DNA of 64,000 bases from Marinobacter sp. LQ44 (lineage in GTDB: Bacteria > Pseudomonadota > Gammaproteobacteria > Pseudomonadales > Oleiphilaceae). Positions 21,824 to 40,793 of the stretch are shown here, piece after piece. Position 1 is the stretch's first letter; each line of letters begins with the position of its first letter. Where the stretch lies: positions 2,852,001 through 2,916,000 of the forward strand of contig NZ_CP014754.1 of the NCBI RefSeq assembly GCF_001447155.2. The letters are read 5' to 3'. The translations under genes were made by a program, and so were the position numbers. A model generated the notes under the pieces. That model made no database searches, had not been told where the DNA came from, and saw nothing but the letters and a program-made list of their open reading frames with translations.

Positions 21824-21884
21824 CCTCCCTATGGATTCAAGGTCTTCCAAAGTGAACGGAACATAATGGGATAGGGAACATAAG
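21824..21884 (-). repeat. RIT right terminal inverted repeat
   Basis: Inverted partner of 18395-18455, identical at 58 of 61 positions. It is directly followed by a perfect 12-bp palindrome and the ATCCGG target copy. Confidence 0.9.
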
Positions 21885-22731: not shown

Positions 22732-22839
22732 GTAAAGGCGCTCACCCAGCGGCCGTTGACTACCTGACAACCGCGATCCGAGGCAAATCGAACCTTGGTG
22801 GTTGAACTGGCAACCAAAGCCTCTGCACGGCTGTTACGG
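22732..22839 (-). pseudogene. 3'-side fragment of a split nuclease-like gene
   Basis: Minus-strand codons from 22838 down read SRAEALVASSTTKVRFASDR, then GCQVVNGRWVSAFT, and run into the IS21 end at 22731. This is the direct continuation of the fragment at 40261-40589: joined over the shared 6 bp they give GWDDANGDCRN followed by SRAEALVASS in one open frame. The pattern GW.D..GDC...R.E.L and DRGC.V..G.W is that of small secreted HNH nuclease-like proteins. The C-terminal part with the catalytic His box is missing. Confidence 0.8.
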
Positions 22840-22848
22840 TTATCACTG
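22834..22848 (+). repeat. Left end of the 17.4-kb element: direct repeat plus terminal inverted repeat
   Basis: TTACGG (target copy, 22834-22839) followed by TTATCACTG. A further TTGTTGAC motif lies 8 bp inside, and again at about 23009. Confidence 0.85.
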
Positions 22849-23145
22849 AACTTTTTTGTTGACTGGAAGTGAGTGAGTGACTGGACACCCTTGTATGCTT
22901 GAGTTGGAGCCGTGATTGATTTAGAAATCCAGGTGTCAACGATGACAGTTCTAGAACGTTTCCCCGCAGAAACAATTAGCGTCTCCAAAACATTCCTCCA
23001 AAACATTTTTGTTGACTGATCGACTCATCAATTTAACCTATTCTCGGTATCCAAGGGCTCTGCCCTCTCGCCGCAAGCGGCGATTCACCCGAGGTATTTA
23101 AGGACCAGCGATGTTCTGGTATTCCGACCATAGATTGGCCGCTTT

Positions 23146-23162
23146 GGCCAAACTATGGAGTC
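23146..23162 (+). repeat. Direct repeat bracketing the cargo, left copy
   Basis: GGCCAAACTATGGAGTC. The right copy at 31545-31561 differs in one base (GGCCAAACTATGGTGTC) and has the same orientation. A GACCGCTTT-type sequence lies beside each copy. Confidence 0.5.
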
Positions 23163-23180
23163 ATAGGTGAGCAGAATTGG

Positions 23181-23208
23181 CCGCTTTCTGATAAAAGCGG
23201 TCCTTTTT
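23181..23208 (+). terminator. Terminator-like hairpin in the left arm
   Basis: CCGCTTT and AAAGCGG arms around a short loop, followed by TCCTTTTTC. No plus-strand gene ends directly before it, so it may insulate the cargo from outside transcription. Confidence 0.5.
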
Positions 23209-23393
23209 CAAATAGGGGTTTACCCGGTCCGCTATTCGGAAACAAGGCACGCTGAGGTCGCAAAGCGGACATTTAGAATAGGCGGACAGCGACCGGCACA
23301 GCCAAGCTAATGGCCCACAACTGGAAGCCGGATGCACCTGACAAACTGTAATGCCCGGGCGCTTGCTCGCTGAAAAGAGCGGCGCGTTTTATC

Positions 23394-23412
23394 CTCTCAT
23401 GAGAAATCCGGG
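23394..23412 (+). repeat. Solitary IS1380 end
   Basis: CTCATGAGAAATCCGGG here equals the right end of the IS1380 element at 13916-15484 over 17 bp, but no transposase or opposite end is nearby. It is a scar of a former copy, 18 bp from the end of the sigma-54 activator gene. Confidence 0.75.
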
Positions 23413-23429
23413 CTACTCCATGAATTACC

Positions 23430-25313
23430 TCAGAGACCAAAATGTTTTATTTTTCGATAGAGAGTGGCTCGTGTTATCCCTAATTCTCGAGCTGCGGCAC
23501 TGACGTTGTGATTGTGTTTCTCAAGCACACATCGCACCGCCTCGCGCTCTGCAGCGGCGAGTGTGCCGCCCTCGCCAAGGTCCACCTCCGCAGTGTCATT
23601 TTGGACCTTGATGTCTTCGGGCAAGTGTTCAACATCGATAATTCCCTGAGTAGACAGCGCCTGACCAAGATTCAGTGCCTGCTGGAGCTCTCTGATATTA
23701 CCTCTCCACGAATGGTGCCTTAAGAGATTACGAGCCTCGGATGTCAGAATCGACGGGGAATCTTCCTGTGAAATTGATGCCAGCAAGTGATCAATCAAAG
23801 CGTCGAGGTCTTCACGCTCCCGCAGAGCAGGGAGCTGCACCCTGAGGCCATTGATCCGGTAATAAAGATCGCTCCGAAAGTCTCCGCTTTCCATAAGCTC
23901 ATCAAGGTTCCGATGTGTCGCACAGACCAGAGAAAACGAGACGGGCCGAGGCTTCTCTTCTCCAAGTCTTGTGACAGTGCGTTCCTGCAAAACACGTAGC
24001 AAACGTGCTTGAAATTCCAATGGCATATCGCCTATTTCATCCAGGAAGAGCGTACCGCCGTTCGCCTCCTCAAACTTCCCCCTGGCGCCACCACGTCTGG
24101 CACCGGTAAATGCACCGTCTGCGTAGCCAAACAACTCTGATTCGATCAACCCGGCAGGAATAGCCGAGCAGTTCACGGCAACAAACGCGCCTTTTGAAGA
24201 GGGCCCATTGGCATGTAACGACCGTGCTAAAACCTCTTTGCCCGTTCCGGTTTCCCCAGTCACCAGAACCGGAACTCCAAACTGAAAAGCCCGATGCGCC
24301 TTGTCGAAAAGTGGTTTTGTAGGCTCGCCCACGTAAAAAGACTGAACGATGTCCGGCCGTCTTTGCTGTGGCATCGAGTTGACGCTCAAAGGCCCTTTGC
24401 GAAGACTTTCAACTTTAAGAAAAAGCCTTGCCCCATTGTGACATTCAACCTCAAGAGGGCTTTGTTGTGATCCCTCAATCTCGGCAGCGCGGCATGAGAA
24501 TAAGTCTTTGAAACAGACATGACTCTGCATCTTCTCGAGAGAATCGATATCCAGCATCTGCCTGGCCGAGGGGTTTGCACCTAAAACTTCACCATCCTCG
24601 CCGAAATGTATCAAACCACGCATAGGTGACTGCGTAAGCTCCGGGCGATAGTGAAGCGCGAGGACTAAGGCGCCACGCAAATCGTCGACCATTCGATTCT
24701 CAACAGACCGAGTTGCGAGCGCAACTGCCTCAAGAATCCCGACCGGTCGGCCATCATAAGGTTTCGAAGCATTCAAAGCCCCGACCAGCGTCCCTGCAGG
24801 GTCAAAAATGGGCACTGCCACGCAGGATAGATCGCGGAGAGAATGCAAGAAATGCTCACTTCCACACACAAGCGACGGCCTGCCTTCTATCAAAGCGCAA
24901 CCGGGGGCATTGGTTCCAGCTATATCCTCTGAAAGGTCCATACCAGGATTCAAAGCGGCTCCCAGCAATTCGTAGCAGGGACTGTCATTGCCGAAATATT
25001 TAATGCTGTGGCCTTCTCTTTCCACACACGCCAAAACCCAACCTGCAGAACTGATTGCACGAAACAACCGATGCATTTCAGGCTCCGCAAATGTCATGAG
25101 ACGCTGATGTTGATTGCGGATATGAGAAATCTGGTCGAATTGCGCGGCCTCAAGTAAGAGCTGATCAGAGGGGGACACGCCATGTTTTCTGCATCTTAGC
25201 CAAGAGCGCAAAACCTCATCCCGCACCCACTGGGATGGTACAACACGCCCTTCGTCAAACAACTCACGGGCTTGCTGGACCTGAGTGTTCAGATCAACGA
25301 TCTTTTTATGCAT
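23430..25313 (-). CDS. Sigma-54-dependent activator, AcoR-like
   Basis: Enhancer-binding transcription activator of 627 residues, starting at ATG 25313 ([20 protein letters not shown]). The N-terminal sensor half (GAF-like, [20 protein letters not shown] at residues about 30-50) matches AcoR-type regulators of alcohol and acetoin use. The central AAA+ domain has Walker [27 protein letters not shown] with the sigma-54 loop GAFTGA, and Walker [11 protein letters not shown]. The C-terminal Fis helix-turn-helix is [20 protein letters not shown]. It is divergent from the outer-membrane/alcohol dehydrogenase operon, whose promoter has a sigma-54 box, so it very likely controls that operon in response to substrate. 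Confidence 0.92.
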
Positions 25314-25362
25314 AAGGACACCCACCACTCTGTATTTTTTTTATTCAACCATCCAATTTTAG

Positions 25363-25379
25363 TGTATCGAAACGATCCA
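25363..25379. promoter_or_regulatory. Candidate activator binding site (UAS)
   Basis: TGTATCGAAACGATCCA contains the perfect palindrome ATCG-AAA-CGAT. It lies about 84 bp upstream of the sigma-54 -24 element, a usual distance for an enhancer. It is the best candidate site for the AcoR-like protein; a second site was not found with certainty. Confidence 0.4.
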
Positions 25380-25462
25380 TTTTTTTCCAAAAACTAAAAC
25401 ATAGATGCTATAAAGCCGCATAAGTAATTGTTTCATAATAATTTCCTAAGGATCAATCGATC

Positions 25463-25478
25463 TGGCATATTGATTGCT
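25463..25478 (+). promoter_or_regulatory. Sigma-54 promoter (-24/-12)
   Basis: TGGCATATTGATTGCT fits the TGGCAC-N5-TTGCW consensus, with the invariant GG at 25464-25465 and GC at 25476-25477 at correct spacing. It lies 45 bp before the start of the outer-membrane channel gene and opposite the sigma-54 activator gene. Confidence 0.8.
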
Positions 25479-25522
25479 TAACTTCGAGTGCAATACCAAC
25501 AAAACTAATAAGAGGCTGCATC

Positions 25523-26446
25523 ATGTCATCTGTATCAAACTATAAGCACAAAAGTTTACTCCGTTCCAGAATTGGGAATTTCTGCGTCGCTTCTGCTGGC
25601 CTGGCCACTATGTTGCTGGCTTCTGGTAATGCAGTAGCTATTGACGTTGATGCCGGGGATTACACAGCATTGCCCGCCGGCACCAATCTTGGAATGGTCT
25701 ACTATCAATACGCCACTGCCGATTCCCTCTACTCGGATGGAGACAAGGCCCCCATTAACGCTGGATTGGACTCACAGGTAGGAATCCTGCGTGGGGTGCA
25801 TTTCACTGAAATTGGCGGTTATACAGTAGACCCTCAATTCCTCCTTCCATTCGGCAAGGTAGAGGGAAAAGACGATACCTCTGCCCTCGGTGACACCAGT
25901 GGCATTGGCGACCTGATACTTGCCGCAACCGTTTGGCTTGTAAACAAGCCCGAAAGTAACACCTACTTCGGCATTACTCCGTTTCTGTATGTTCCTGTAG
26001 GGAGTTACGATCGGAATGACACATTAAACCTCGGCGAAAACCGATGGAAATATGCATTGCAGGCGGGTTACATCACCGGTCTTACCTCTAAAATCTCGTT
26101 AGACCTGATTGGTGATGTCACTTTTTTCGGCAAGAATGACGAACTTGGTGCCTCCAAAGCCACTCTGGAACAGGATCCCTTGTACCAGTTCCAAGGCTTC
26201 CTACGTTATAACGTAACACCTCAATGGGATCTTCGCACCGGCATTTCTCATACCCTCGGCGGTGAGACACAAGTAAACGATATAAACCAGGACAATGACC
26301 TTGCAACTACCAAGATGACTATCGGTACGGCATGGTTTGCGAATCCGGGACTGCAACTAATCGCAAATTATGGAAGAGATTTGTCCGTAGAAAATGGATT
26401 TAAAGAACAGCACCGACTCAACTTTCGTATTCTAAAAGCGTTTTAA
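25523..26446 (+). CDS. Outer-membrane channel, phenol MetA-pathway degradation family
   Basis: A 307-residue outer-membrane protein of the family found beside catabolic operons for phenol and other hydrophobic compounds (Phenol_MetA_deg type), thought to help substrate entry. The signal peptide ends near SGNAVAID. Beta-barrel patterns follow: LPAGTNLGMVYYQYATADSL, VDPQFLLPFGKV, GIGDLILAATVWLVNKPES, YFGITPFLYVPVGSYD, and a final LNFRILKAF. It is the first gene after the sigma-54 promoter, 39 bp before the alcohol dehydrogenase. It probably lets the alcohol substrate reach the periplasmic enzyme. Confidence 0.82.
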   Translation: MSSVSNYKHKSLLRSRIGNFCVASAGLATMLLASGNAVAIDVDAGDYTALPAGTNLGMVYYQYATADSLYSDGDKAPINAGLDSQVGILRGVHFTEIGGYTVDPQFLLPFGKVEGKDDTSALGDTSGIGDLILAATVWLVNKPESNTYFGITPFLYVPVGSYDRNDTLNLGENRWKYALQAGYITGLTSKISLDLIGDVTFFGKNDELGASKATLEQDPLYQFQGFLRYNVTPQWDLRTGISHTLGGETQVNDINQDNDLATTKMTIGTAWFANPGLQLIANYGRDLSVENGFKEQHRLNFRILKAF

Positions 26447-26485
26447 AATCCCATAAAACAGTAATAACAACGAAAGGATATAAAA

Positions 26486-28597
26486 ATGAAACTGACTAAT
26501 AATCACTACAGAAAACGTCTATCAAAAAAACTAACAAGTAGTGCATTAGTTCCATTTTTCGTAATCGGAGCCAGCACTGTTATTGCGGCTGATCAGGTAA
26601 ATCAAAGCTATATCATTGAAAACGCCAAAACCGGCAAGGACTGGCCAACCCATGGTTTTGATTATGCGGAGACGCGCTTTAGCCCTCTCGCCCAAATTTC
26701 GGCCGATAATGTCGAAAACCTCGGGCTTGCATGGTCCTACAACCTCGAGTCTACCCGAGGAGTCGAGGCCACTCCGCTTGTCGTGGATGGCGTGATGTAC
26801 GTCACTGCTTCCTGGAGCATTGTACATGCACTCGATGCAAAGACCGGCAAAAAACTATGGACCTACGACCCTGAAGTACCCGGGGAGGCGGGCTCAAGGG
26901 GTTGTTGTGATGTTGTAAACCGCGGTGTGGCAGTGCACTACGGAAATGTCTATGTTGCATCCTACGATGGTCGATTGATCGCTATTGATGCAAAAACCGG
27001 CGAAAAAGTCTGGGAAACGAATACTCTGCCCGACAACGACATGAGCTATACGATTACCGGCGCACCTCGAGTTGTTAACGGCAACGTGATCATAGGCAAT
27101 GGTGGGGCCGAATTTGGAGTCAGGGGCTACATCACAGCTTACGACGCGAAAACCGGCGCACAGAAATGGCGTTGGTATACCGTGCCGGGAAATCCGAACG
27201 AACCGTTTGAAAACGAAGCCATGGCTCGCGCCGCGAAAACCTGGGACCCAAGTGGAAAATACTGGGAGGCCGGTGGCGGTGGCACCGTATGGGACTCCAT
27301 CGTTTTTGATCCGGACCTGAATCTCTTATATATCGGCACAGGTAACGGCTCTCCATGGTCACACAAGAAGCGGAGCCCGGAAGGTGGAGATAACCTCTAT
27401 CTCTCCTCAATTGTTGCTCTCAATGCCGACACTGGTGAGTACGTGTGGCACTACCAAGCCACGCCCGGGGATAACTGGGACTATACTTCAACGCAGGACA
27501 TGATTCTCAGCGAGCTCATGATTGATGGGGAGCGTCGCAAAGTAATCATGCAAGCTCCCAAAAACGGCTTCTTTTTTGTTCTCGACCGGACAAATGGTGA
27601 ATTCATATCGGCCGATAATTACGTCGATGTTAATTGGGCCACGGGATACGATAGCAATGGTCGCCCAATAGAAGTTCCTGAAGCACGATCCATGGACGAA
27701 CCCTTCGATATCATCCCTGGGCCTTTTGGTGGACATAATTGGCACTCAATGTCTTTTAACCACCAAACCGGCCTGGCTTACTTCCCGTCTCAGCACATCC
27801 CGATCACAATGGTCGAGGACCCCTCCTGGGAAAGCATAGAAAGCAATGAGCCGGGACAACCCATGAGTGGCATAGGTTGGAACACCGCCTTCCAATTTAA
27901 CGTAGCGCCACCATCAAGCAAGCCGTTCGGGCGACTTACAGCCTGGGATCCCGTTACACAGCAGGAAGCCTGGCGTTACGAACACGTCTCTCCCTGGAAC
28001 GGCGGAACCCTGACAACGGCCGGCGATCTGGTATTCCAGGGAACCGCAGACGCTCGCTTTATGGCATTCAACGCTCGGACGGGTGACCCCCTCTGGGAAT
28101 CCCCAATGGGTACCGGCGTCATTGCAGCGCCCATAACCTATGAAGTGGACGGCACTCAGTATGTCTCTATTGCGGCAGGCTGGGGCGGTGTTTTTGGAAA
28201 ATCCCAGAGGGCCTCCGACCTCAAGACCGCCGGCACTGTCTATACATTTGTCCTGAACGGTGATGCCGAGATGCCTGAGTTCACCCAGTATCAGCTGAAC
28301 TCTCTGGTTTCGGGCGTTGAATACAATCCCGACTTCATTGGAGAAGGCACGGCTCTTTACGTCAGTAATTGCGTGTTCTGTCATGGCGTTCCCGGCGTAG
28401 ACAAGGGCGGTAATATTCCAAACCTGGGTTATTCAAAGAAATCAGTCATTGAAAACCTGGACGCCTTCCTGTTTCACGGTCCATTCGTTTCCAGTGGCAT
28501 GCCCGATTTTACCGAAACGCTGAGTAAGACAGATGTCGAGAAAATCAAAGCGTTTATTCAGGGTACTGCAGACGCTATCCGTCCAAAAAGTCAGTGA
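26486..28597 (+). CDS. PQQ- and haem c-dependent alcohol dehydrogenase (quinohaemoprotein)
   Basis: Periplasmic type II quinohaemoprotein oxidising primary alcohols to aldehydes and passing electrons through its own cytochrome c domain. The signal peptide ends near TVIAA. The eight-bladed PQQ propeller shows the start motif DWPTHGFDYAETRFSPL, repeated tryptophan docking motifs (DAKTGKKLWTYD), the vicinal disulfide Cys pair in SRGCCDVVNRGV, and the active-site Asp region GDNWDYTSTQDMILSE. The C-terminal haem domain has CVFCH (about residue 628) and the Met ligand in SSGMPDF. Length of 703 is normal. PQQ synthesis genes are not in the window. The true substrate (short alkanol, terpenoid or other alcohol) is unknown. 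Confidence 0.93.
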   Translation: MKLTNNHYRKRLSKKLTSSALVPFFVIGASTVIAADQVNQSYIIENAKTGKDWPTHGFDYAETRFSPLAQISADNVENLGLAWSYNLESTRGVEATPLVVDGVMYVTASWSIVHALDAKTGKKLWTYDPEVPGEAGSRGCCDVVNRGVAVHYGNVYVASYDGRLIAIDAKTGEKVWETNTLPDNDMSYTITGAPRVVNGNVIIGNGGAEFGVRGYITAYDAKTGAQKWRWYTVPGNPNEPFENEAMARAAKTWDPSGKYWEAGGGGTVWDSIVFDPDLNLLYIGTGNGSPWSHKKRSPEGGDNLYLSSIVALNADTGEYVWHYQATPGDNWDYTSTQDMILSELMIDGERRKVIMQAPKNGFFFVLDRTNGEFISADNYVDVNWATGYDSNGRPIEVPEARSMDEPFDIIPGPFGGHNWHSMSFNHQTGLAYFPSQHIPITMVEDPSWESIESNEPGQPMSGIGWNTAFQFNVAPPSSKPFGRLTAWDPVTQQEAWRYEHVSPWNGGTLTTAGDLVFQGTADARFMAFNARTGDPLWESPMGTGVIAAPITYEVDGTQYVSIAAGWGGVFGKSQRASDLKTAGTVYTFVLNGDAEMPEFTQYQLNSLVSGVEYNPDFIGEGTALYVSNCVFCHGVPGVDKGGNIPNLGYSKKSVIENLDAFLFHGPFVSSGMPDFTETLSKTDVEKIKAFIQGTADAIRPKSQ

Positions 28598-28611
28598 TTT
28601 GGGGGAAACTA

Positions 28612-30126
28612 ATGAATACGTTCACAAAACATCCACATGGTTTAGAGAATAAAACCCAGGCGTTCCTGGCACGTCAAAATCACCGTATGCTGATAGGCGG
28701 CCAATGGGTTGATGCTCTGGAAAACAAACGCATAGAGGTAGAAAACCCGGCTGAAGAAACGGTTATAGGAAGCATACCCCTTGCACATCCTGATGACGTT
28801 AACAAAGCGGTTAGCTGCGCAAAAAGTGCGTTCAATAGTGATGACTGGGGCCGAATGAGACCCTCCGCCCGTCAGAACCTGCTTCTCAAACTTGCAGATC
28901 TGATCGAGCGAGATGCCAGAATCATTGCTGAGCTGGACGCGATCGACAACGGCAAGTCTGTTGCTGTTGCCGAAGCTGTTGACGTAAGCCTGGGACTGGA
29001 ATTCTTTCGCTACATGGCCGGATGGGCAACAAAAATTGAGGGCTCGACTCTTGACGTGTCCATGCCCTTTGCCCCGGCTGACTCTGACTTTTCTGCTTAT
29101 ACCCGACGCGAACCCGTCGGTGTTGTTGCCGCGATCATACCGTGGAACTTTCCATTTCTGATGGCCTGCTGGAAACTGGCTCCGGCACTTGCAGCGGGCT
29201 GCACGGTTGTGTTGAAGCCTGCGGAACAAACATCGCTCTCTGCCCTCTATCTGGGCGAGCTGATCGAAGAGGCAAACTTTCCTGACGGGGTTGTCAACAT
29301 CATTACTGGCGAGGGCCAGAGCACCGGGTCAGCACTGATAACTCATCCTGACATCAACAAGATTAGTTTTACCGGATCCACTGAGGTAGGTCAGATCATA
29401 GGCCGTGCTGCGATGGATAATATGGCGCGAGTTACCTTGGAGCTGGGGGGCAAGTCTCCAATGATTGTTCTGGCTGACTGTGATGCGGAAAAGGCTGCGC
29501 AAGGAGCAGCGGCAGCAATCTTTTTCAACCATGGACAAACCTGCAGTGCCGGCTCCCGACTTTACGTTCACCGGAGCATTTCTGACAAGGTCCTGGATCG
29601 GCTCGCCGAGTTAGCAGAGGCCATCCCGCTGGGGCCTGGCCTGGATCCAGATGCTCAAATGGGGCCACTCGTGTCCCGGGTTCAGCTAGACCGGGTTTGT
29701 CACTACATTGAGACGGGGCGGCAGGAAGGTGCACGCCTGGTTACCGGCGGCGAACGTGCTGACCGCAAAGGTTATTACGTCAAGCCCACCATATTTGCGA
29801 CCGAAGACGACTCTCTGGTCATAGCCAAGGACGAGATCTTTGGTCCCGTTCTGGTGGTCATCCCGTTTGATGATATCGAGGACGTCGTAGCCCGGGCCAA
29901 CGATAGTCGATATGGGCTGGCAGCGAGCATCTGGTCAAACGATCTCTCTGAGGTGCAACGCTTAATCCCGAAATTAAAAGCAGGCACTGTCTGGGTAAAC
30001 GGGCACAACATGCTTGACGCCAACATCCCATTCGGGGGCTATAAACTCTCCGGGGTTGGACGTGATATGGGTAAGCAGTCACTCGATTCATATCTTGAAA
30101 CAAAGTCGGTTGTCATTGCCCTTTAG
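28612..30126 (+). CDS. NAD(P)-dependent aldehyde dehydrogenase
   Basis: Oxidises the aldehyde made by the preceding enzyme to the acid. The ATG at 28612 has GGGGGA upstream, so it is preferred over the GTG at 28594 that overlaps the dehydrogenase stop. Family motifs are complete: the PWNFPFLMACWKLAPALAAG substrate/cofactor region, the GST-type fold segment KISFTGSTEVGQ, general base Glu in VTLELGGKSP, and catalytic Cys in FFNHGQTCSAGSR. Its 504 residues are typical of the class I/II type (AldA/betaine-aldehyde relatives). A strong terminator follows 7 bp after the stop, ending the three-gene operon. Confidence 0.92.
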   Translation: MNTFTKHPHGLENKTQAFLARQNHRMLIGGQWVDALENKRIEVENPAEETVIGSIPLAHPDDVNKAVSCAKSAFNSDDWGRMRPSARQNLLLKLADLIERDARIIAELDAIDNGKSVAVAEAVDVSLGLEFFRYMAGWATKIEGSTLDVSMPFAPADSDFSAYTRREPVGVVAAIIPWNFPFLMACWKLAPALAAGCTVVLKPAEQTSLSALYLGELIEEANFPDGVVNIITGEGQSTGSALITHPDINKISFTGSTEVGQIIGRAAMDNMARVTLELGGKSPMIVLADCDAEKAAQGAAAAIFFNHGQTCSAGSRLYVHRSISDKVLDRLAELAEAIPLGPGLDPDAQMGPLVSRVQLDRVCHYIETGRQEGARLVTGGERADRKGYYVKPTIFATEDDSLVIAKDEIFGPVLVVIPFDDIEDVVARANDSRYGLAASIWSNDLSEVQRLIPKLKAGTVWVNGHNMLDANIPFGGYKLSGVGRDMGKQSLDSYLETKSVVIAL

Positions 30127-30133
30127 GAAGAAT

Positions 30134-30171
30134 GCTAAACCCCGGCCCTGAGAAGCCGGGGTTTAGCTTTG
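30134..30171 (+). terminator. Rho-independent terminator after the aldehyde dehydrogenase
   Basis: Perfect 13-bp stem GCTAAACCCCGGC (30134-30146) and GCCGGGGTTTAGC (30155-30167) with an 8-nt loop, followed by TTTGATT. It closes the alcohol oxidation operon. Confidence 0.88.
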
Positions 30172-30380
30172 ATTGGTCGACCATTCAACTTCCGAGAGTC
30201 GAATACCACCTTCCTCACAGGTGAGCCACAAAGCTTCATCGATATGGGGATCAACAGAATGACGCAGGTCTGCTGTATGGCTCCTTGCGCGATGCCGCTC
30301 GAGATAGTCAGGTATCCATGCGGCGAGGAGTGCGAGCAGCACACCAGTAAATGTATGTACAGTTTGGCGAGGAATAACAA

Positions 30381-31640: not shown

Positions 31641-33821
31641 TCAATGGCTAACCCCCGAATCCCTCTTCCCTTCGAGCAACAAATCTTTCAAGTAGCTCGC
31701 TCGCCTGTTGGCATTACTCACTGACTTCGCCATTGAAGCAAAATCGCTGCTGTTCCCCACGATATGAACCTCGGCTTCTGCACGAGTCACCGCTGTATAG
31801 AGCCAAGCTCGATCTGAGATCCGCCCCTTCTGGATTGCGACTACGATTCTTGGGAACTGGCTACCTTGGGCCTTGTGCAGCGTAATGGCATAGCCCAGTT
31901 CCATACAATCGAAGATTTCCTCCGTGATCGGAATTTGCTCACCTGTATCCAGCGTCACCACGCCATAGGTGTCCTGATCGTCCTGATAGCCACGTTCTGT
32001 CGAGGTCAAGACGCCCAACGAGCCGTTCTGAATACCGAGGTTGTAATTATTTTTGGTGAACAGGATAGGGTCACCCAATCGGAGATCCAGGTAGAAATCC
32101 TCGCCATAGAGGGTAAATTGCAGACGCTCACCATCTGGGTTAATCAGCCGCTGACACTCCTGATTCAGCTCTCTGACTAAAGCCTTGGTTGCCCCGACGA
32201 TTTGAGTGGGCTGAGGAGAATCTGCATAGAGCGCCTTGCACCGATCAACAATCTGTTCTGAACTCGCCTCATGGAACGTAATCGCTCCACAAGACAACGA
32301 GCGAGGGACCTCGCCACGATTGATGGTGGCTGAGTATTCAGGTATTCCTGTCGCACCTTCCTGACGCTTCACAATACGAAGTGCCTGAGTCGCCACCGCA
32401 CCTGACTCAACGATGTCCGACAACACTTTGCCGCAACCGATTGGCGGGAGCTGATTGGGGTCGCCAGTGAGAATGATCCGAACTGATGGATCAAGATGCG
32501 TAATGAGTCGGTACATGGTCGGAAGGTCAATCATGCTCGCCTCATCGATGACGAGGACATGCTTTGGGCGATCCAGCGTGGGCTCTATCGGCTCCTCTCG
32601 AAGCAACCGGGCAATGGTCATGGTGAAGAAGCCAATGCTCTCGTGCAGCCGCATTGCCGCTCTGCCAGACAAGGCAACCGCATGAACTTCATATCCCAGT
32701 GAGTTGTACGCCCTGAGAACTGTCCTCAGCACCGTCGTTTTGCCCGTTCCGGCACCACCGATAATGCAGGACACAGAGTTGGTCAGACTGGATTCAACGG
32801 CCTGCACCTGTTGTTCCGTGAGGTCATAAGGCAGATCCAGAACCGCATCGGTTAAGGCTTTGAATACCTCCTCATCTGAGTCAGTCATGCTGGCCATGGA
32901 TTTCAGGCGTTTGGCAACGACCGACTCCATCATGATTTGAGCGGTAGGATGGTAGGTGCCGTTATCGGGTCGGAGGATAAATTGGCCGCTCTGATGCCCG
33001 TTTTCGAAAGCGGCCGTTGTCAGTTCGGCGTCCTGTAAAAGCTCGTTAACCAAAGGCTTGAGGGCTTTGTGGGTGGCGTAAGTATGCCCCTTTTCAACCT
33101 GTTTGCGGATTGCCGTCTCCAGTGCCCCGGCAAGGCGCTGGGGCGCAGATTTCGCAAAGCCTAATCGCTCTGAGATGGTATCAATGTCCGTAAACGCCAT
33201 CCCAAATCCAAGAAGTGCATAGGGATTGCTCTTGAGGACATCGACAGTGCGTTCATCGTGGTATTTCAGAATGCGTTGCTGGATACGCAACGGGATTCCG
33301 AGCGAGGCCAGCCAATTAGCGTGTGCGAGGTTTCGGTATTTGGCGTAGCCGTTGTATAGGGCGTCTACCGATACATCACTCAGAATGCCCTTCAGAAGCT
33401 CCCTGTGATCCGCTGTGTCGTATCGCAGCATCTGGTGTAGTTGGCTGCCGAAGGCGTCCCAGAGCGCCCGTGCTTTCGCCTCACCAATGCCGGTGAAATC
33501 TCTGTCTGACGCAATAAAGCGGATCAGTGCCTCACCGGATTCTGGCAACGTGCATTCCATTTCAACCGGCGCGTTATAGACATGCTGCTGTAGTTCAAAG
33601 TCGCCTGCCTGAACCGCCTCCAATACCCGCTCACCACGCACGCGCCATTGCTGGCCTACAGATGGTTTGATGGGCAGAGACTGGTTTTCGCACCGGATGG
33701 AGATGATGTATTTCCCGCTGTTGATGCGGTAGCTGTTGGCTTTCAGCGGGACACCAGAAAAGATCGTGTATTTTGCGCCTTCATGCTGACAACTGGTTAC
33801 GCGGAAATAGTCTTCATTCAT
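31641..33821 (-). CDS. RecD2-like superfamily 1B helicase
   Basis: A 726-residue ATP-dependent DNA helicase of the RecD/RecD2 class, last gene of the mobility operon. An N-terminal helix-hairpin-helix region (GIGEAKARALWDAFGSQLHQ) leads to the motor: Walker A in IIGGAGTGKTTVLRTVL (about residue 357), Walker B in HVLVIDEASMIDLP, motif III LTGDPNQLPPIGCGKVL, and the C-terminal UvrD-like YAITLHKAQGSQFPRIVV. Its ATG overlaps the stop of the 144-residue gene (ATGA). RecBC partners are absent. Being coupled to three recombinases, it may process DNA ends or the excised circle; that role is inference. Confidence 0.88.
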   Translation of the reverse strand: MNEDYFRVTSCQHEGAKYTIFSGVPLKANSYRINSGKYIISIRCENQSLPIKPSVGQQWRVRGERVLEAVQAGDFELQQHVYNAPVEMECTLPESGEALIRFIASDRDFTGIGEAKARALWDAFGSQLHQMLRYDTADHRELLKGILSDVSVDALYNGYAKYRNLAHANWLASLGIPLRIQQRILKYHDERTVDVLKSNPYALLGFGMAFTDIDTISERLGFAKSAPQRLAGALETAIRKQVEKGHTYATHKALKPLVNELLQDAELTTAAFENGHQSGQFILRPDNGTYHPTAQIMMESVVAKRLKSMASMTDSDEEVFKALTDAVLDLPYDLTEQQVQAVESSLTNSVSCIIGGAGTGKTTVLRTVLRAYNSLGYEVHAVALSGRAAMRLHESIGFFTMTIARLLREEPIEPTLDRPKHVLVIDEASMIDLPTMYRLITHLDPSVRIILTGDPNQLPPIGCGKVLSDIVESGAVATQALRIVKRQEGATGIPEYSATINRGEVPRSLSCGAITFHEASSEQIVDRCKALYADSPQPTQIVGATKALVRELNQECQRLINPDGERLQFTLYGEDFYLDLRLGDPILFTKNNYNLGIQNGSLGVLTSTERGYQDDQDTYGVVTLDTGEQIPITEEIFDCMELGYAITLHKAQGSQFPRIVVAIQKGRISDRAWLYTAVTRAEAEVHIVGNSSDFASMAKSVSNANRRASYLKDLLLEGKRDSGVSH

Positions 33822-34252
33822 GGGGCGACACCAAATTCCGTCAGCACCTCAGATAACTCGCCATAGCGCTTGAGTTTGGCTTCCAGCGTTGCTACGCGGG
33901 CTTTCAGCTCAATGTTTTCCTGCTCCAGAACGGAGACTCGTTTTGACTGCAGTGACCGCTGATTGGCGCTGGCATCGTAAGGCTTTGGCGCAGACCGTTG
34001 TTGCTGTGCGGATTCTAGCAGTGGCGGTAATACGCCTCTTTCACGGAGGTCCGTTTCGAGATGCTCCAAGGCCGTTTTTATCGCCGGATTCTGGCGCAAG
34101 GCGCTCTTTCCGATACCGATAGCGTTGGCAACTTCGCCACGGTTTAGCTGGCCGCGAGAGACGATCTGCTTGAAATCATCATCGGTTTGCGTAACGGCCC
34201 AACGCTGAAAGGCAACAAGGTTTTCCCGCGCTTTCTGCTGTCCGTTTGCCAT
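33818..34252 (-). CDS. Small HTH/coiled-coil protein, VPA1267-like
   Basis: A 144-residue protein starting at ATG 34252 (MANGQQKARENLVAFQRWAV) with GGTGGGAG upstream; the TTG at 34258 is less likely. The middle carries a helix-turn-helix-like stretch (QLNRGEVANAIGIGKSALRQ) and the end a leucine-rich coiled coil (VSVLEQENIELKARVATLEA). From memory it resembles VPA1267-type proteins seen near gamma-mobile-trio genes; this needs a search. The stop overlaps the helicase start. A DNA-binding accessory role in recombination is likely but unproven. Confidence 0.7.
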   Translation of the reverse strand: MANGQQKARENLVAFQRWAVTQTDDDFKQIVSRGQLNRGEVANAIGIGKSALRQNPAIKTALEHLETDLRERGVLPPLLESAQQQRSAPKPYDASANQRSLQSKRVSVLEQENIELKARVATLEAKLKRYGELSEVLTEFGVAP

Positions 34253-34254
34253 GG

Positions 34255-34878
34255 TCAACTCCCACCTTTCGTCTGGGCAACCAGTCGTCTTAACTGATCT
34301 CTCTCTTCCGCCAGTTGCGCAAGCTCTTTAATAAGCTCACGGTTAGATTCGGACAAACCGGCATTCCGTCTGCGGCATGCGCTCAACTCAGACTCCAGAG
34401 CTTCGTTTTTCTCTTTCAGGTTGCGTTGCGTCGAAAGCAAATCTCGCTCAATAGCCGCTTCCAGAAATTCCTTCATTTTCAGGTTTTCCATTTCGTGGAG
34501 CTGCCTTTGCAGCACCAAATTCTCTGTCTCTGTCTCTGACTTTGTTTTATGACGTCCACGACGCGCCTTAAGCTTTAAAGCCTCATAACGATTGATTAAT
34601 TTTTCATTTTCTCGCTCGATAAAATCAATGAGTTCCGGTCTTCGCGAAGACCTAATATTGCTCTTATCGATGTTCAATGAGAGAGCGATTCTCGAAGCGA
34701 TTACTGTGCGCTCTCGCAAACTCAATTCATCGCCCTGGTCAATCAAGCCCTCAAGTTCTTTGACTTCTTCCACCACTTTTGAGTAGAGCGCTTTAGTTAG
34801 ACTGTTTCCTTCTGCTACCCATGAAGGTGCATCGTTAACTAACGGGGATACGAAGTTCTCCAAATCAAAAGTGCTCAT
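34255..34878 (-). CDS. Coiled-coil protein of unknown function
   Basis: A 207-residue hypothetical protein. The C-terminal half (residues about 95-200) is a long, highly charged coiled coil (EALKLKARRGRHKTKSETET, then leucine-rich repeats to LAEERDQLRRLVAQ). The N-terminal half has a possible helix-turn-helix (RTVIASRIALSLNIDKSNI) and SSRRPELIDFIERENEKL. It resembles accessory subunits such as TnpC of Tn554 only in size and coiled-coil content, which is not proof of homology. The ATG shares one base with the stop of the preceding gene. Confidence 0.65.
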   Translation of the reverse strand: MSTFDLENFVSPLVNDAPSWVAEGNSLTKALYSKVVEEVKELEGLIDQGDELSLRERTVIASRIALSLNIDKSNIRSSRRPELIDFIERENEKLINRYEALKLKARRGRHKTKSETETENLVLQRQLHEMENLKMKEFLEAAIERDLLSTQRNLKEKNEALESELSACRRRNAGLSESNRELIKELAQLAEERDQLRRLVAQTKGGS

Positions 34879-35045
34879 TATATCTCTCCTAATTCACGGA
34901 GAATCCGCTCTGCATTTTTGATAGCTTTTTTGCTCGCATCGACAGCCTTGCTCCGGATTTTGAGAGGATGTTTTTGAATGAAATTTTGATGGGCGACACC
35001 CAACCTTTTAATAGCTTCGGCATGGGGTTGAAGTACCAGGTTCAT
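34878..35045 (-). CDS. Small basic protein, 55 residues, in the mobility operon
   Basis: Starts at ATG 35045, overlapping the recombinase stop by 4 bp (ATGA). The sequence is Lys- and Ala-rich and probably helical (RSKAVDASKKAIKNAERILR). No known domain is recognised. The tight coupling on both sides supports it as a real gene. Confidence 0.6.
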   Translation of the reverse strand: MNLVLQPHAEAIKRLGVAHQNFIQKHPLKIRSKAVDASKKAIKNAERILRELGEI

Positions 35046-36868
35046 CGGACAGCCTGAACAAACAGAAAAACCCAAAATCGGTGTGGATCGGGAAGATTAG
35101 TTCTTGGGTCCCTACAAAGAGCTTGACTTTTTCTCTTCGAACTGAACATGCAATAGCCATATTCATGAGCATTGATGATGTCAAAATCCCTGGCAATTTC
35201 ATCGACTGCTTCCTCAAACTCGCCTACTGGAAGGAATACATGACTATCGCCAATAATTTCAGTGACCCGCTTCCTTATGTAGAGTGCGACGCCGCCAACG
35301 AATTCGTATTGGTCTTCAGACGTCGCAATTCTGGCAACCAGCTCATTAATGTAATCTCGCTCTAGCTGGTTCATTACGCTTGGGGTGAGTTTGCCGTCAG
35401 TGTACTTCTTTGTATAGCCACTGCCTTCACCGTGTAGAAAGTGTTGCCGAATAGCCTCCAGAACGTTTCCATCAAATCGTCGTAAGGCGAACGCAGCAAA
35501 ACTGTGTCTGAACTGATGGGGACTGATTGAAGAATTTTTCGTTGTAACAGCATCTCCGTGTTTATCAATAAAACGGGCGTAAAACCTTTTTACATAGGAC
35601 GAAACTGTATCCTTTTTTGGGTGGAAGTACTCTCCTTCTTCACCCCTGTCCACCATGTTTTGACATAAATTCCGGCTAAATAAACCAACATTGTCTGTCC
35701 GTTTGTCCGAGTAGCTCAGCGCCTCAAGCACATCGGCTGCTTCTGCGACCAAGCCGTGCATGACTCTAATCTCGCTTCCTCCAGCGTGGGTTTTATCTAC
35801 TTGGCTTTTGAAAATCCACTCACCACTGTTTCTCTTCTCGTAATCGCTTACCTTTATTGTGCAAAGCTCAGAAACACGAATGCCCGTAAGACAGAGAAAT
35901 ATAACCGCGCAAGCCTCATATACCTCTGCACAATAATTAACGAACTCGCCGTGTGAGTTCCAAAATAGCGCAGACAGTTCTCGCCCAATTACTTCCGTGA
36001 ATAAAGCATCAAGTCTCAGAATTTTTTCTCTGGCATTCCTTCTATGACCATGATTTCTAAACTCCGGAAAGATTCTACCTTGTTTCATGTATTTATTCAG
36101 ACTGACCCGATTGCCTGATTCCCTTCCATAGACTAAATCATGCCGAATTTGATCAGGCGATCTCTGCACTTTACAGAGGGCGACTGCCGCCCGCGTCTGG
36201 TCAGATCGAAGCACCGCAATTGCTTCTGCTAGAAGAAGCATCGCAACTTCAGTAGCAACCTCACCGAAACTCCCTCCCTTAAAATATGCATCTATGTGGA
36301 CGCCATGCTTTTTAAGAAGGTCGCCAAACATAGCATTCGCCGAATTTCTCCGGTTATGAAAGCAGATCGCGAAACCATCAGAAATTGCACCCTCTGAAAA
36401 AGCGTGATTACTAACATTTATAACAGTGAACAAACCATTTGTGCTTCCACGAGAAGCCAAACCGTCTGGTTTATCCTGCGCAGTCAAAAACAATTCCCCA
36501 AGAAGATTAGCCCGAAACATCTCTGTGATCAGCTCCCTGTCCCATCGATGAAACTCAAGCGTTATATTACGTTGACTAGAAAATAATAGAATTTTTCGGA
36601 GATCAACGACAAAGCCCTTTATCGTACTTTTACGGGCGACAAGCTTTCCGTCCTCCGATACGTAACCACCCGAATAGAAAACAACCATTTCCTTTGCCCA
36701 CAGTTTCTTTACATACGAGCCTTCATAAGATGCCCAATTTAACACCAAGATATCGGATGACGTTTCATCAGTGATATACCATTTCTCATCGCCCAGACGA
36801 TTGAAACGCGGCGTTTCGAGATCTTTCTGTTCTTGCGAACCTGATGCTTTTGAAGAGACGGTGCTCAT
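35042..36868 (-). CDS. Large tyrosine recombinase (608 residues)
   Basis: Third recombinase of the element. The catalytic domain lies in the C-terminal half: Arg I in CLTGIRVSELCTIKV (about residue 335), Lys in SQVDKTHAGGSEIR, H-x-x-R in SPHQFRHSFAAFAL, and the Tyr region RQHFLHGEGSGYTKKYTDG. The N-terminal 300 residues are unlike the usual core-binding domain. Such long integrases occur in Tn554 (TnpB) and in gamma-mobile-trio elements. The ATG overlaps the stop of the preceding gene (ATGA). Codon use is AT-richer than in the cargo. Confidence 0.82.
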   Translation of the reverse strand: MSTVSSKASGSQEQKDLETPRFNRLGDEKWYITDETSSDILVLNWASYEGSYVKKLWAKEMVVFYSGGYVSEDGKLVARKSTIKGFVVDLRKILLFSSQRNITLEFHRWDRELITEMFRANLLGELFLTAQDKPDGLASRGSTNGLFTVINVSNHAFSEGAISDGFAICFHNRRNSANAMFGDLLKKHGVHIDAYFKGGSFGEVATEVAMLLLAEAIAVLRSDQTRAAVALCKVQRSPDQIRHDLVYGRESGNRVSLNKYMKQGRIFPEFRNHGHRRNAREKILRLDALFTEVIGRELSALFWNSHGEFVNYCAEVYEACAVIFLCLTGIRVSELCTIKVSDYEKRNSGEWIFKSQVDKTHAGGSEIRVMHGLVAEAADVLEALSYSDKRTDNVGLFSRNLCQNMVDRGEEGEYFHPKKDTVSSYVKRFYARFIDKHGDAVTTKNSSISPHQFRHSFAAFALRRFDGNVLEAIRQHFLHGEGSGYTKKYTDGKLTPSVMNQLERDYINELVARIATSEDQYEFVGGVALYIRKRVTEIIGDSHVFLPVGEFEEAVDEIARDFDIINAHEYGYCMFSSKRKSQALCRDPRTNLPDPHRFWVFLFVQAVR

Positions 36869-39027
36869 GAGTGTGCCTCGAACAATTCTGGAAACTCAAA
36901 ATTCAGCCTTGCTTGAAGTTCTGAACCTGCCTTTTTAAGATGTGCCGGAAACTGGTCGAGAATTTCCAAAAGGTAGATTTTCTTTGTCATAAGGCTCTGG
37001 AAAGTTTTCGTATTTTTTTCAAAAACCGAACTCAGGACTGAATCAAGCTTCTTCACATATGCCTGTATGAGAGCGCTGGTTACCTCACTTTTAATAATAA
37101 CAGTCTTGTCAGAAAAGGTTAGCTCTCCAAACAAGCCAAATTCTAGATCATCGATCATCTTCTGAGAAATTTCTTCCAAGCTTGCAGCGGGCGCCTTTAA
37201 ACCCAGTAGTGACGATGCTTTTTCCAGATCGACAACTTCAGTGTTCTCAAGCATAAATGACAACTTTGACGCATCCTCCATCATTTTCTCGCCAACCTGC
37301 CTGGGAAAATGGGATTGCTTTATAATATGTTCAGGTTCTCTTGACCGAGCAAGATATACTTCTCGTTTTGTTTTCTGAGTATGTTTTGTAAGTGCAGCGG
37401 CAACCTCAGGGTCGTCTAGTTCCGCGTCGTCAAAGGTCGACTGATCAAGTAAAACACGGCTTCGCCCAATATTATCGACGCTTAAAGTTGTTTTGATGAC
37501 ATTTTTTATCCGCTTTTTTACAGTGCCGTAGTTTCGGCGATAATCTTCTTGTTTAATCCGTTCCTTTACAGCCTCATGGTTTGATAAAACATTCTCCATT
37601 AACCACAAGAATGGTTTTTCATCACCCAGTAAATCCATTTCACATTGGTTTCGAGGGATTGAGTCCGCGACGCAAAGATCACCAAATAAATACTCATAAG
37701 AAGTTAACGGACCGAGCGCAAATCTCCAGAATTGCCCACAATGCGGATTGAAGAGATTTCTTTCTGCGTCGGCGATATAAGATTCGCTTTGTTGCGTTAA
37801 CTCAACAAAGTATTTAATTGCCTGATAAATGTAGGACTGCCGCTTATACTCTGGCGATGTAAACGGAATAGTCTTATTTGACCGAAATTTATAATGACTG
37901 TAGACCAATGTCCTTTCCGATATGGAAAAGTCATCAACCCTCATAGATTGCAAGGCAGCGGTCTGGACTCGGTCCGACGCTAGAATATAAGCAAGGGAAA
38001 GGTTCTCGACATACGTCGGTAAGACCAGATCGCGTATTGTGAAGCTATAGTTCGTTGAGAAACCACCGTGGGAATTTCCGAACTCATTACCGAATGATTT
38101 ACTGTGTTTTTTGATCAAATTAAAACTAAAGCCAGTGTCGAATTTGATACAGTCGTTTAAGAGCTCTCTCATGCGTTGAACAGAAGGCGATCTATAGTTT
38201 CGATTCTTCAAACCTGCAGGTATTATTGACCGAAACGCTCTGTTCACGAGCATTGAATTTTTGCTCTGGGCTGCCGTCTTGAGCATCTCTCCATAGATTT
38301 TTCGTGCTGAAAGTTCCTGTGAGGAGTTTAAGGTTCTTTGTCTCGAACTCAACGAACTGTTCAATATGATGGGATAAGAGGAAAAGCATAGGTCATCGAA
38401 TATATGGCGTAGCTCCCCAACAACGTTTTCGTTATCCAATAATTCGTTTCGCTCTTGCGCAGTTCGATTTATTATCCAGCTACAGACTATTCGTAAAGAG
38501 TGGAGGAGCTCAAGATTAGAGTATGGACAATGCGGGAAAATCTCGCTCATTGACAATTTTGGCCTTTTAGGCGAAGGTTTTTTCAGAGCGCGATTGGTTG
38601 GAATCAATCTTTGAGCTATTCCTATATCGCCTTGATTCGATGATTGTGATAAGAAATATTTAAGGGCTTTTGAGACAATATTTACTTCGCTACGAATCGA
38701 ATTCGTAGTCGCCGTTTTTTTGTTTTTTAGGTAATTGAAGTAGTTCGGGTATAAAAGTGTTTTTGCGCTTAGAGCAACAGGATAATCTAGGGTTCCTAAA
38801 TAATCAAAAAAATTCCTAATCTTCAAAAACTCGTTTCTTCTTGTCGAAGGCCGTAAATTTGCAAATTTCGCAGAACACAAATATTTGAGGCACGCTCTGA
38901 TAACAATGTAGCCGATCAGCTCCGATTTTATTTCAAAAGTTCTATTAATTCCATCTACATTGGTTGAGTACAGGCCTCTGGATATCTCAACTATAATGCT
39001 TGAGGTACTTTCAGTGAGGTTTAACAA
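36865..39027 (-). CDS. Very divergent tyrosine recombinase-like protein (720 residues)
   Basis: Second large protein of the module. The start is a TTG at 39027, 14 bp after the first recombinase stop; no better in-frame start was seen. An integrase-like Arg I block (LASDRVQTAALQSMRVDDF) and a late block ALTKHTQKTKREVYLARS resemble the His and Tyr boxes, but a clear H-x-x-R box between them is missing. It may be a structural partner or a recombinase with a changed active site. The N-terminus has a core-binding-like segment (RPSTRRNEFLKIRNFFDYLG). Low-GC codon use suggests a foreign origin of the module. Confidence 0.7.
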   Translation of the reverse strand: MLNLTESTSSIIVEISRGLYSTNVDGINRTFEIKSELIGYIVIRACLKYLCSAKFANLRPSTRRNEFLKIRNFFDYLGTLDYPVALSAKTLLYPNYFNYLKNKKTATTNSIRSEVNIVSKALKYFLSQSSNQGDIGIAQRLIPTNRALKKPSPKRPKLSMSEIFPHCPYSNLELLHSLRIVCSWIINRTAQERNELLDNENVVGELRHIFDDLCFSSYPIILNSSLSSRQRTLNSSQELSARKIYGEMLKTAAQSKNSMLVNRAFRSIIPAGLKNRNYRSPSVQRMRELLNDCIKFDTGFSFNLIKKHSKSFGNEFGNSHGGFSTNYSFTIRDLVLPTYVENLSLAYILASDRVQTAALQSMRVDDFSISERTLVYSHYKFRSNKTIPFTSPEYKRQSYIYQAIKYFVELTQQSESYIADAERNLFNPHCGQFWRFALGPLTSYEYLFGDLCVADSIPRNQCEMDLLGDEKPFLWLMENVLSNHEAVKERIKQEDYRRNYGTVKKRIKNVIKTTLSVDNIGRSRVLLDQSTFDDAELDDPEVAAALTKHTQKTKREVYLARSREPEHIIKQSHFPRQVGEKMMEDASKLSFMLENTEVVDLEKASSLLGLKAPAASLEEISQKMIDDLEFGLFGELTFSDKTVIIKSEVTSALIQAYVKKLDSVLSSVFEKNTKTFQSLMTKKIYLLEILDQFPAHLKKAGSELQARLNFEFPELFEAHS

Positions 39028-39041
39028 GTTTGGCCCGCCCG

Positions 39042-40175
39042 CTATTTATATTGATTATTAAAAGGTGGTAACTTTCTATCGTTTCCCGCAAGTTTCTTTA
39101 ATATATTATTTCTTTGATTCATAACTGCGTCAAAAAAGACATATATGAACGTGGTTTGCTTGTCGGTGTGACCCATATATTCGGGAACGATTACCCAAGG
39201 GTCGAAGCCATTTTCGTAACTCCAACTCACTAAATTCGTGGCGTAGCATTTTCGGAGTGTATGGAATCTACTTCTGCCCCAGGCAATGTCTGACCTTCCT
39301 TCAGTGCTGAGGATTTTGCTTCGGCAAAACGCGAATACATCGCTAGGTAATTGGTCTGAGCTTCCGAGCCATGATCCATTTTTTTTGCAAATTAAGGGGC
39401 CAGGCGGAAGCTTCCCCCTCTCTCCATTTATAAACTTTGATATAGATGACACTAACCGTGGCGGACAGGGAACTGTTCTCAACTTTTCGCCCTTTCCTAT
39501 AATTTCGATTTCGATTGCGGCGTTGAGTGTTGACCTCGCATTTAATTTGGCTTCCAGGACAGTTGTATCGAGATTTCTCGGATCGATAATTTCTCGCGCT
39601 CTCAATCCCGCATAATAACCAAGCATTAGAACTAGTTCTGCCCTTTGCCTGGTAAAGGTTGATTTTGAAATTAATTGAGACGCTGGTAGTACAGTATTTT
39701 GAAAATCGTCCTCGGAAATGTGTGTCTCCCGTAATTTTGCGATCGAATCTGCTGAGAGCGTTGATGTTTTAAAATCAAAATTTGACAGGTTGATTTCAAA
39801 GTTTGGAATATTTTCTATCAGCCCGATGGATCTTGAAAACCGGTAGAACCGGTTAAGTGCTGCAGTGTGATTTTCGACTGATTTTCGTTTTAATCCTTTC
39901 TCTTGAATGAGGTAACTATGGACATAAGCAGAGATATCTCGATCAGTAAGAGCGTTCCATTGGTCCACTCCTTTCCAATCCTCCAATGCTGTGAAAAAAG
40001 TCCTTAATCGGTCTTTGTAGCTTCTAACTGTGTTCTCTGATGCGCCGCGCATAGATTCACTTAAGGCGAAAAGTGTGGGAGCCAACAGAGGTTTTTTTCG
40101 ATGCCAAAAAAAATAGCTGGAGATGTGTAAGGAGGGCGTTAGTTCAATGCCAGTAACTTTTTGAACAGTTATCAT
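39042..40175 (-). CDS. Tyrosine recombinase (integrase) at the element end
   Basis: First gene of the mobility operon, 377 residues from ATG 40175; the frame is open further upstream, but only with a TTG inside the terminal region. The SAM-like domain (GASENTVRSYKDRLRTFFTA) precedes a full catalytic set: Arg I in YYAGLRAREIIDP, Lys in IIGKGEKLRTVPC, H-x-x-R in RFHTLRKCYATNLV, and His/Tyr in YMGHTDKQTTFIYVFFD. It lies only 77 bp from the element edge, the usual place for the integrase that cuts that end. It is comparable in size to Tn554 TnpA. Confidence 0.88.
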   Translation of the reverse strand: MITVQKVTGIELTPSLHISSYFFWHRKKPLLAPTLFALSESMRGASENTVRSYKDRLRTFFTALEDWKGVDQWNALTDRDISAYVHSYLIQEKGLKRKSVENHTAALNRFYRFSRSIGLIENIPNFEINLSNFDFKTSTLSADSIAKLRETHISEDDFQNTVLPASQLISKSTFTRQRAELVLMLGYYAGLRAREIIDPRNLDTTVLEAKLNARSTLNAAIEIEIIGKGEKLRTVPCPPRLVSSISKFINGERGKLPPGPLICKKNGSWLGSSDQLPSDVFAFCRSKILSTEGRSDIAWGRSRFHTLRKCYATNLVSWSYENGFDPWVIVPEYMGHTDKQTTFIYVFFDAVMNQRNNILKKLAGNDRKLPPFNNQYK

Positions 40176-40251
40176 AATTATCACATAGTGCTTTTTGATG
40201 ACAATACAAAAGAGCTGGCTTGCTGTCAACAAATAATCTCATGCTCGCGCA
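40176..40251 (-). promoter_or_regulatory. Promoter/arm region of the mobility operon at the element's right end
   Basis: A 76-bp gap between the integrase start and the terminal repeat. It holds an inverted TTATTTGTTGAC motif, matching motifs at the other end, and a TTGTATTG...stretch suited to a promoter, plus a TGTGATAATTATGATAAC imperfect palindrome overlapping the integrase start. Binding of the recombinases here could both build the synaptic complex and repress transcription. Confidence 0.35.
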
Positions 40252-40266
40252 CAGTGATAATTACGG
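40252..40266 (-). repeat. Right end of the 17.4-kb element: terminal inverted repeat plus direct repeat
   Basis: CAGTGATAA (inverted copy of the left TTATCACTG) followed by TTACGG, the second target copy. Confidence 0.85.
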
Positions 40267-40589: not shown

Positions 40590-40793
40590 AGATCCGTTGA
40601 GCTCAGGTACGTGATAGGTTGTGAAATACATTAAAGCACCAGATTCTGAACGCTTTCGCAATCCATGGCCATCTGCATTCTACGGCCAACCAACGCTTCA
40701 ACGGTGTCGGCACCATGATCGAAGTGAGAATTCTCCCAAAGCGTCGTAAGATGAGGATGAACCACGACACTCGCGCAATTAAGAGGGCCAGTT

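Follow-up and report, generated by a model that had tools for sequence, protein, structure and literature searches.

The described systems closest to the locus reported here are the strand-biased circularizing integrative elements (SEs), compared here through SE-6283, SE-6945 and SE-Pda04Ya311 on pAQU1. SEs were catalogued by their Tfp and Srap proteins. PMC9345347 describes SE-6283 relatives that carry bcp and are inserted in bcp, and PMC10214605 treats SE-type copying without leaving an empty site as a question that is still open. The latter paper gives the RIT archetype as three recombinases of 315-410 aa, all with the catalytic Tyr, flanked by 34-bp ends. Other systems considered are the GMT islands (Mahata et al. 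2024, as cited in PMC12039261), the GInts (ginABCD islands, Tn6571 family) and Tn554.

Here we analyse a stretch of 64,000 nucleotides from Marinobacter sp. LQ44 (contig NZ_CP014754.1), hereafter the window, whose numbering is used throughout. We consider it probable that the window holds a 17.4-kb SE-like integrative element that belongs to a clade distinct in sequence and has inserted site-specifically in a nuclease gene of the GmrSD_C type.

Ends and boundaries

The element spans 22840-40260 (17.4 kb), coordinates that are exact in the window sequence. On the plus strand, the left end reads GGCTG TTACGG followed by TTATCACTG (22829-22848), and the right end reads CAGTGATAA followed by TTACGG CAATC (40252-40271). 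The terminal inverted repeat is perfect over exactly 9 bp and, by eye, the similarity does not go further. The features at the two ends are as follows.

22834..22839: TTACGG repeat on the intA-distal side (attR); donor fingerprint in the SE model
22840..22848: left terminal inverted repeat TTATCACTG, motif C' side
22856..22863, plus strand: TTGTTGAC motif near the left end
23009..23016, plus strand: second copy of TTGTTGAC on the left side
40225..40232, minus strand: TTGTTGAC motif near the right end, possibly the intA -35 or an arm site
40252..40260: right terminal inverted repeat CAGTGATAA, motif C side
40261..40266: TTACGG repeat on the intA-proximal side (attL); host-derived 6 bp in the SE model, from the sequence and 11 intact loci

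Among random pairs from the window, inverted ends of 9 bp were reached in 4 of 20,000 when 3 bp of slack was allowed each way, and the outer 6-mers were identical in 74 of 200,000. Because the ends were set by the split gene described below, the inverted ends and direct repeats together are far from chance. The attachment sites are TTACGGCAATCAC (attL) and TTACGGTTATCAC (attR), and the joined form, CAGTGATAA-TTACGG-TTATCACTG, places a 6-bp spacer between the inverted ends, as in SEs. The ends also show a 13-bp direct repeat with 2 mismatches. A similar GTTGAC was seen by eye upstream of intA in five related loci (L029, L031, L033, L036 and L037). One copy of the element was found in the genome. 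An earlier note on this DNA had proposed 9-bp inverted ends with outer TTACGG repeats, which the sequence bears out at both ends, and a discrete element with a known target and tyrosine-recombinase-type ends around a 6-bp spacer, which these data support.

Insertion into a nuclease gene

Joining 22601-22839 to 40267-40600, which removes the element and one TTACGG, yields a single open minus-strand frame that reads ...GWDDANGDCRN SRAEALVASS..., so the in-frame join over the 6 bp claimed earlier holds. Uninterrupted homologues of the nuclease gene, which the earlier note had suggested as a check, align across the join in all 11 same-genus loci examined. These come from a search of 61 genomes of the genus with the right flank, which gave DNA matches in 15 genomes, the own one included, at 18 places; 12 of the places came with a locus, one of which is the genome's own, and the 11 foreign loci (L013-L023) were examined. 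The printed junction segment is ungapped in all of them and the whole alignment in 9 of the 11, and one open frame runs across the site in 6 of 8 translated loci (L015 and L019 have none with the motif used). The best intact locus, L013, aligns without a gap for 442 bp across the join at 81%. The 6-mer at the site differs among the intact relatives (TCCCGG, TTTTGG, TCCTGG, TCTTGA, TCCTGA and others).

The two parts of the target gene in the window are listed here.

40267..40661, minus strand: N-terminal part of the target nuclease gene (84% to L013 from 40264 to 40939)
22732..22839, minus strand: middle part of the target nuclease gene (77% to L013; 3' part missing)

By its domain match, the target is a GmrSD_C-type nuclease gene: the intact homologue in L016 has a GmrSD_C domain (HNH-like; E 4.8e-13, residues 141-225). 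The insertion point lies upstream of this domain, and the element thus splits the gene between its N-terminal and catalytic parts. The gene bears a second injury, its homology stopping at about 22730 beside presumably IS21-like sequence, and a search for the 3' part elsewhere in the window did not find it.

On the left side of the window lie three overlapping tandem tyrosine recombinases of 338, 379 and 437 aa (18482-21794, minus strand), a RIT-like trio. It sits between two pieces of what we take to be an IS21-like transposase gene (17489-18343, Mu-transpos_C_2; 21837-22556, HTH_23), as if inserted into that gene. Right of the element, the ORF at 42029-43177 joins what we take to be a membrane-protein-like N terminus to a presumably IS3-type transposase end; this combination in one ORF suggests that an insertion fused two frames.

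A four-gene recombination core

From the right end inward, the gene order is IntA, a 720-aa protein, IntB, a 207-aa protein, a VPA1267-family protein and a RecD2-like helicase.

39042..40232, minus strand: IntA, tyrosine recombinase, 396 aa (PF00589, E 1.1e-8)
36865..39027, minus strand: Tfp-like protein of 720 aa, with a suggested degenerate fold of the tyrosine-recombinase type
35042..36868, minus strand: IntB, large tyrosine recombinase, 608 aa, frameshifted near its C terminus (PF00589, E 6.7e-9)
34255..34878, minus strand: Srap-like small protein, 207 aa, coiled coil by eye, similarly placed in 13 of the 15 related loci
33818..34258, minus strand: VPA1267-family protein, 146 aa, GMT accessory (NF040697, E 4.3e-57)
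31641..33821, minus strand: RecD2-like SF1 helicase, 726 aa, GMT accessory (TIGR01448, E 3e-110, below its cut-off)

By profile comparison, IntA and IntB are homologous to their SE counterparts (hhalign E 3.5e-18 over 315 columns and E 4e-17 over 485 columns, respectively); other profile comparisons with IntB as the query gave E values of at least 0.024. The catalytic R-K-H-R-H-Y set of IntA and all six catalytic residues of IntB are complete in 13 of 13 aligned family members each, the window proteins included. IntB is 608 aa long with its last part in a different frame, compared with 663 aa in the near-identical P0002; given this frameshift, either this copy of the element may have lost its activity or the assembly may contain an error at intB.

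The Tfp-like protein has an incomplete catalytic set: it keeps K380, H549 and Y558 and has no HxxR, and a possible box-I Arg was seen by eye in 10 of 13 family members. A degenerate tyrosine-recombinase fold is suggested for this protein, the fold match of its structural model being within the chance range for helical models; plain Foldseek with the same model returned nothing at E 0.001. Its similarity to SE Tfp is weak (hhalign E 0.017 over 56 columns), as is that of the 207-aa protein to the SE Srap profile (E 0.012 over 43 columns), and BLASTP of the element's proteins against those of pAQU1 gave no meaningful similarity bearing on Tfp or Srap homology. Judged by its proteins, the core is a sequence-distinct clade. 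Of the three recombinases counted earlier, two stand with all six catalytic residues and the 720-aa one lacks the full set; the count of three small proteins fell to two (207 and 146 aa), and the supposed third may be the out-of-frame 3' end of intB.

Relatives of the core and their insertion sites

The four core proteins had no match among 72,556 plasmids. Among 5.8 billion proteins, in a search that detects only relatives with shared short exact words, the 720-aa protein fell in one near-identical cluster of 6 contigs. Near-identical core proteins occur in other contigs, P0001 (99%) and P0002, and the IntB cluster comprises 11 contigs. Among 7,997 scored candidates, 11 relatives of IntB outside its own cluster were found, at 28-35% identity; alignment of these led to 24 loci in genome assemblies, 15 of which were counted as true relatives. 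They include Colwellia, two Marinomonas, Pseudoalteromonas, Shewanella, Marinicella and five Pseudomonas species, and the remaining four are two further gammaproteobacteria and two metagenome bins labelled proteobacterium and Verrucomicrobia. The order IntA-Tfp-IntB-small protein, with the tfp and srap slots assigned by position, is found in 13 of the 15 loci; the other two end at contig ends.

Three Pseudomonas relatives (L031, L033 and L036) are inserted in what we take to be the nuclease gene endA, after the codons for PSIGEV, and L033 additionally carries a longer, diverged endA-like ORF (13906-14886). In L037 the relative lies within a presumably asparaginase-like gene, and in L028, L038 and L041 the insertions follow gene ends, indicating that nucleases are not the sole target.

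A helicase pair found in GMT islands

The RecD-like helicase proposed earlier is supported by its match to TIGR01448, below the cut-off of that model. It and the VPA1267-family protein share 77% and 79% identity, respectively, with their counterparts in a GMT island on a Providencia IncC plasmid; against the pair in two Marinomonas elements with the core described here, identity is 55-61%. In a tree of 14 helicases, the window helicase groups with that of the Providencia GMT island (96/100), and the helicases of the window core's own family form one clade in 0 of 200 bootstrap trees; the placement of the long rows L028, L030, L039 and L075 is unsure, and the window-Providencia grouping is not among these. 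The pair follows the core in 7 of the 15 related loci, a count that includes a weak VPA1267 match in L030 (1e-4) and a helicase cut by the contig end in L042.

The pair also follows a third kind of four-gene core on a Photobacterium toruni plasmid (L074 796-9131, from NZ_CP101696), with proteins of 441, 548, 773 and 139 aa. Profile matches of this core to the SE, GMT and window families are faint (the best being first protein to GmtY, 9e-6; third protein to IntB, 4e-4 over 27 columns; small protein to the 207-aa family, 9e-4), so this core may be distantly akin to them. The 11 SE loci tested gave no match to the helicase and a single cross-match to VPA1267, by one Srap, at 3e-4. A Srap protein (L084 14046-14456) and the window VPA1267 protein (33818-34258) have weak mutual similarity (E 2e-4 to 3e-4), which may reflect remote kinship or just that both are coiled coils.

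An alcohol-oxidation cassette with its own edges

The left part of the element is occupied by a discrete unit, to which protein families would assign alcohol oxidation.

23256..31435: alcohol-oxidation cassette, 8.2 kb
23430..25328, minus strand: sigma-54-dependent activator, presumably AcoR-like (PF00158, E 1e-62)
25523..26446, plus strand: Phenol_MetA_deg family protein (PF13557, E 1.4e-39)
26486..28597, plus strand: PQQ-dependent alcohol dehydrogenase with cytochrome c domain (PF01011, E 1.3e-86; PF13442, E 1.8e-11)
28594..30126, plus strand: aldehyde dehydrogenase (PF00171, E 1.6e-176)
30381..31157, plus strand: LuxR/NarL-type response regulator (PF00072, PF00196; best NCBIfam ErdR, below cut-off)

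By BLAST, the cassette begins at 23194 or 23256 and ends at 31433-31449, identity stopping at GTTTA (31435). It recurs in three other genomes of the genus, G036 (99.85%), G441 (92%) and G010 (90%), with edges that agree within about 16 bp, except in G010, where it starts about 60 bp further left; its flanks are mutually unrelated among the three. The earlier note had seen a complete alcohol-oxidation cassette as part of the element: its regulator and dehydrogenase genes are present, but the cassette is not special to this element, having the same edges in these three genomes. Four more of the 61 genomes have most of the coding part at 72-77%, and in the one of these looked at, G022, the edges are absent. 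In G441 a four-gene set with SE-level scores (E 2e-33, 7e-15, 3e-32 and 6e-20) precedes the cassette by about 83 bp, and no SE-like core was found near the cassette in the 42 and 44 kb read of G036 and G010. In the G036 cassette (L083 11077-12608), the aldehyde dehydrogenase is split into two ORFs of 339 and 155 aa.

The cassette edges are inverted versions of one sequence, TCTRAATGTYCGCTTTK, which, with up to 3 mismatches allowed, occurs 10 times in the own genome, both edges included, compared with once in the reversed control. The inverted edges and the repeat sites in the genome point to a cassette that is itself mobile or a repeat-bounded unit. Two further copies of TCTRAATGTYCGCTTTK, in the same relative orientation and about 25 kb apart, lie just right of the element at genome positions 2893635 (window 41635) and 2918668, and the edge sequence also occurs near the intact nuclease gene of G031 (L014 2323-2356).

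Proposed mechanism and alternatives

By analogy with SEs as described in PMC10214605 and PMC9345347, we infer movement of the element with strand bias. With the Tfp-like and Srap-like proteins assisting, IntA and IntB would pair both ends and exchange strands over the 6-bp spacer, giving a circle that carries the 6 bp of one flank; as in SEs, this circle would recombine with a host site whose half-site resembles the element end. Here that half-site is CAATCAC and the element end TTATCAC, and their likeness would account for the insertion site. For the RecD-like helicase, its family lets us guess at a role in replicating or processing the joined intermediate. SE copying can leave the flanking 6-mers different. 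Here they are identical, so no mark of copying is visible at the site, and the 6-mers speak neither for copying nor against it.

The same kind of element might instead move by ordinary cut-out and paste-in excision that restores the empty site, as in ICEs and IMEs. Identical 6-bp repeats on both sides are what conservative integration with a matching overlap would produce, and some GInts appear to give empty sites (PMC5385486). We nevertheless regard this as unlikely, because the core order and the IntA and IntB profiles are of the SE type, for which PMC10214605 and PMC9345347 report empty sites as absent or rare, and because relatives with an intact site differ in its 6-mer, from TCCCGG, TTTTGG and TCCTGG to TCTTGA and others.

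That the element is itself a GInt would account for the three recombinase-like proteins with a small protein, and the 13-bp direct repeat with its 2 mismatches resembles the 10-17 bp imperfect repeats of GInts. In GInts, compared here by description, GinA and GinB are complete, the protein without the first Arg is the third (GinC) and GinD is small, whereas the incomplete one is second in this element, and IntA and IntB have clear SE counterparts; this assignment is very unlikely. Least probable of all would be to read the element as a GMT island with a trio too diverged to be recognised. The attraction of this reading is the 79% and 77% identity of the VPA1267-family protein and the helicase to those of a GMT island, yet the NCBIfam GmtY, GmtZ and GmtX models, which match the Providencia genes strongly, do not match the 720-, 608- and 207-aa proteins at a limit of E 10. 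IntA had no GMT model match at E 1e-3, profile comparison gave nothing beyond IntA-GmtY at E 6e-5, and the trio has one gene fewer than the window core. An SE-like integrative element of its own clade remains the probable reading.

A possible modular platform

As a tentative extension, SE-like elements, GMT islands and the L074 type could be one modular platform in which core, helicase pair and cassettes are swapped independently. If this were true, the joined intermediate would owe its missing copying step to the VPA1267-RecD-helicase pair. The Tfp-like protein, retaining Tyr, His and Lys with an incomplete Arg set, would then be a third active partner and not a mere scaffold. A clade of SE architecture with a helicase and partner protein in 7 of 15 related loci would offer a direct handle on copying. 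The common cassette indicates that catabolic genes can move from one element type to another, and the helicase tree indicates as much for accessory genes; given this exchange, a description by modules may suit such elements better than one by fixed families.

Comparison with known systems

The earlier note knew of no described element with the full set of genes. Its parts have precedents: the four-gene core is the SE architecture published in PMC10214605 and PMC9345347, and the VPA1267-helicase pair belongs to GMT islands annotated in public plasmids. No described element with the whole combination was found in literature searches that were not aimed at exactly that combination.

A RIT was ruled out for the element, its recombinases being 396, 720 and 608 aa long and the ends 9 bp. 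Tn554, compared by description, differs in having no Tfp counterpart. GInts of the Tn6571 family share three recombinase-like proteins with a small protein, imperfect direct repeats and, as proposed for them, 6-nt staggered cuts; by description, they differ in the place of the incomplete recombinase, third (GinC) in GInts and second here. With GMT islands, which for the comparison of pair order include L072 by similarity, the element shares a VPA1267-family protein and a RecD-like helicase in the same order, beside the small gene that ends the recombination operon. This pair is the usual company in the GMT islands seen, not a defining gene, and the GmtY, GmtZ and GmtX models have no match in the window element.

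Unlike SEs, the window element has Tfp-like and Srap-like sequences that are barely recognisable as SE, ends that are 9 bp and perfect compared with 13-19 bp and imperfect in the described SEs, and a VPA1267-helicase pair that was not found in 11 SE loci, one weak Srap cross-match aside. Like SEs, it has the core order intA-tfp-intB-srap at one end, first and third proteins that are catalytically complete with an incomplete second, a 6-bp spacer between inverted ends, a single copy in the genome, and relatives mostly in gammaproteobacteria. Taken together, the sequence comparisons make it look like a distant relative of the described multi-recombinase elements, in a divergent SE-like clade.
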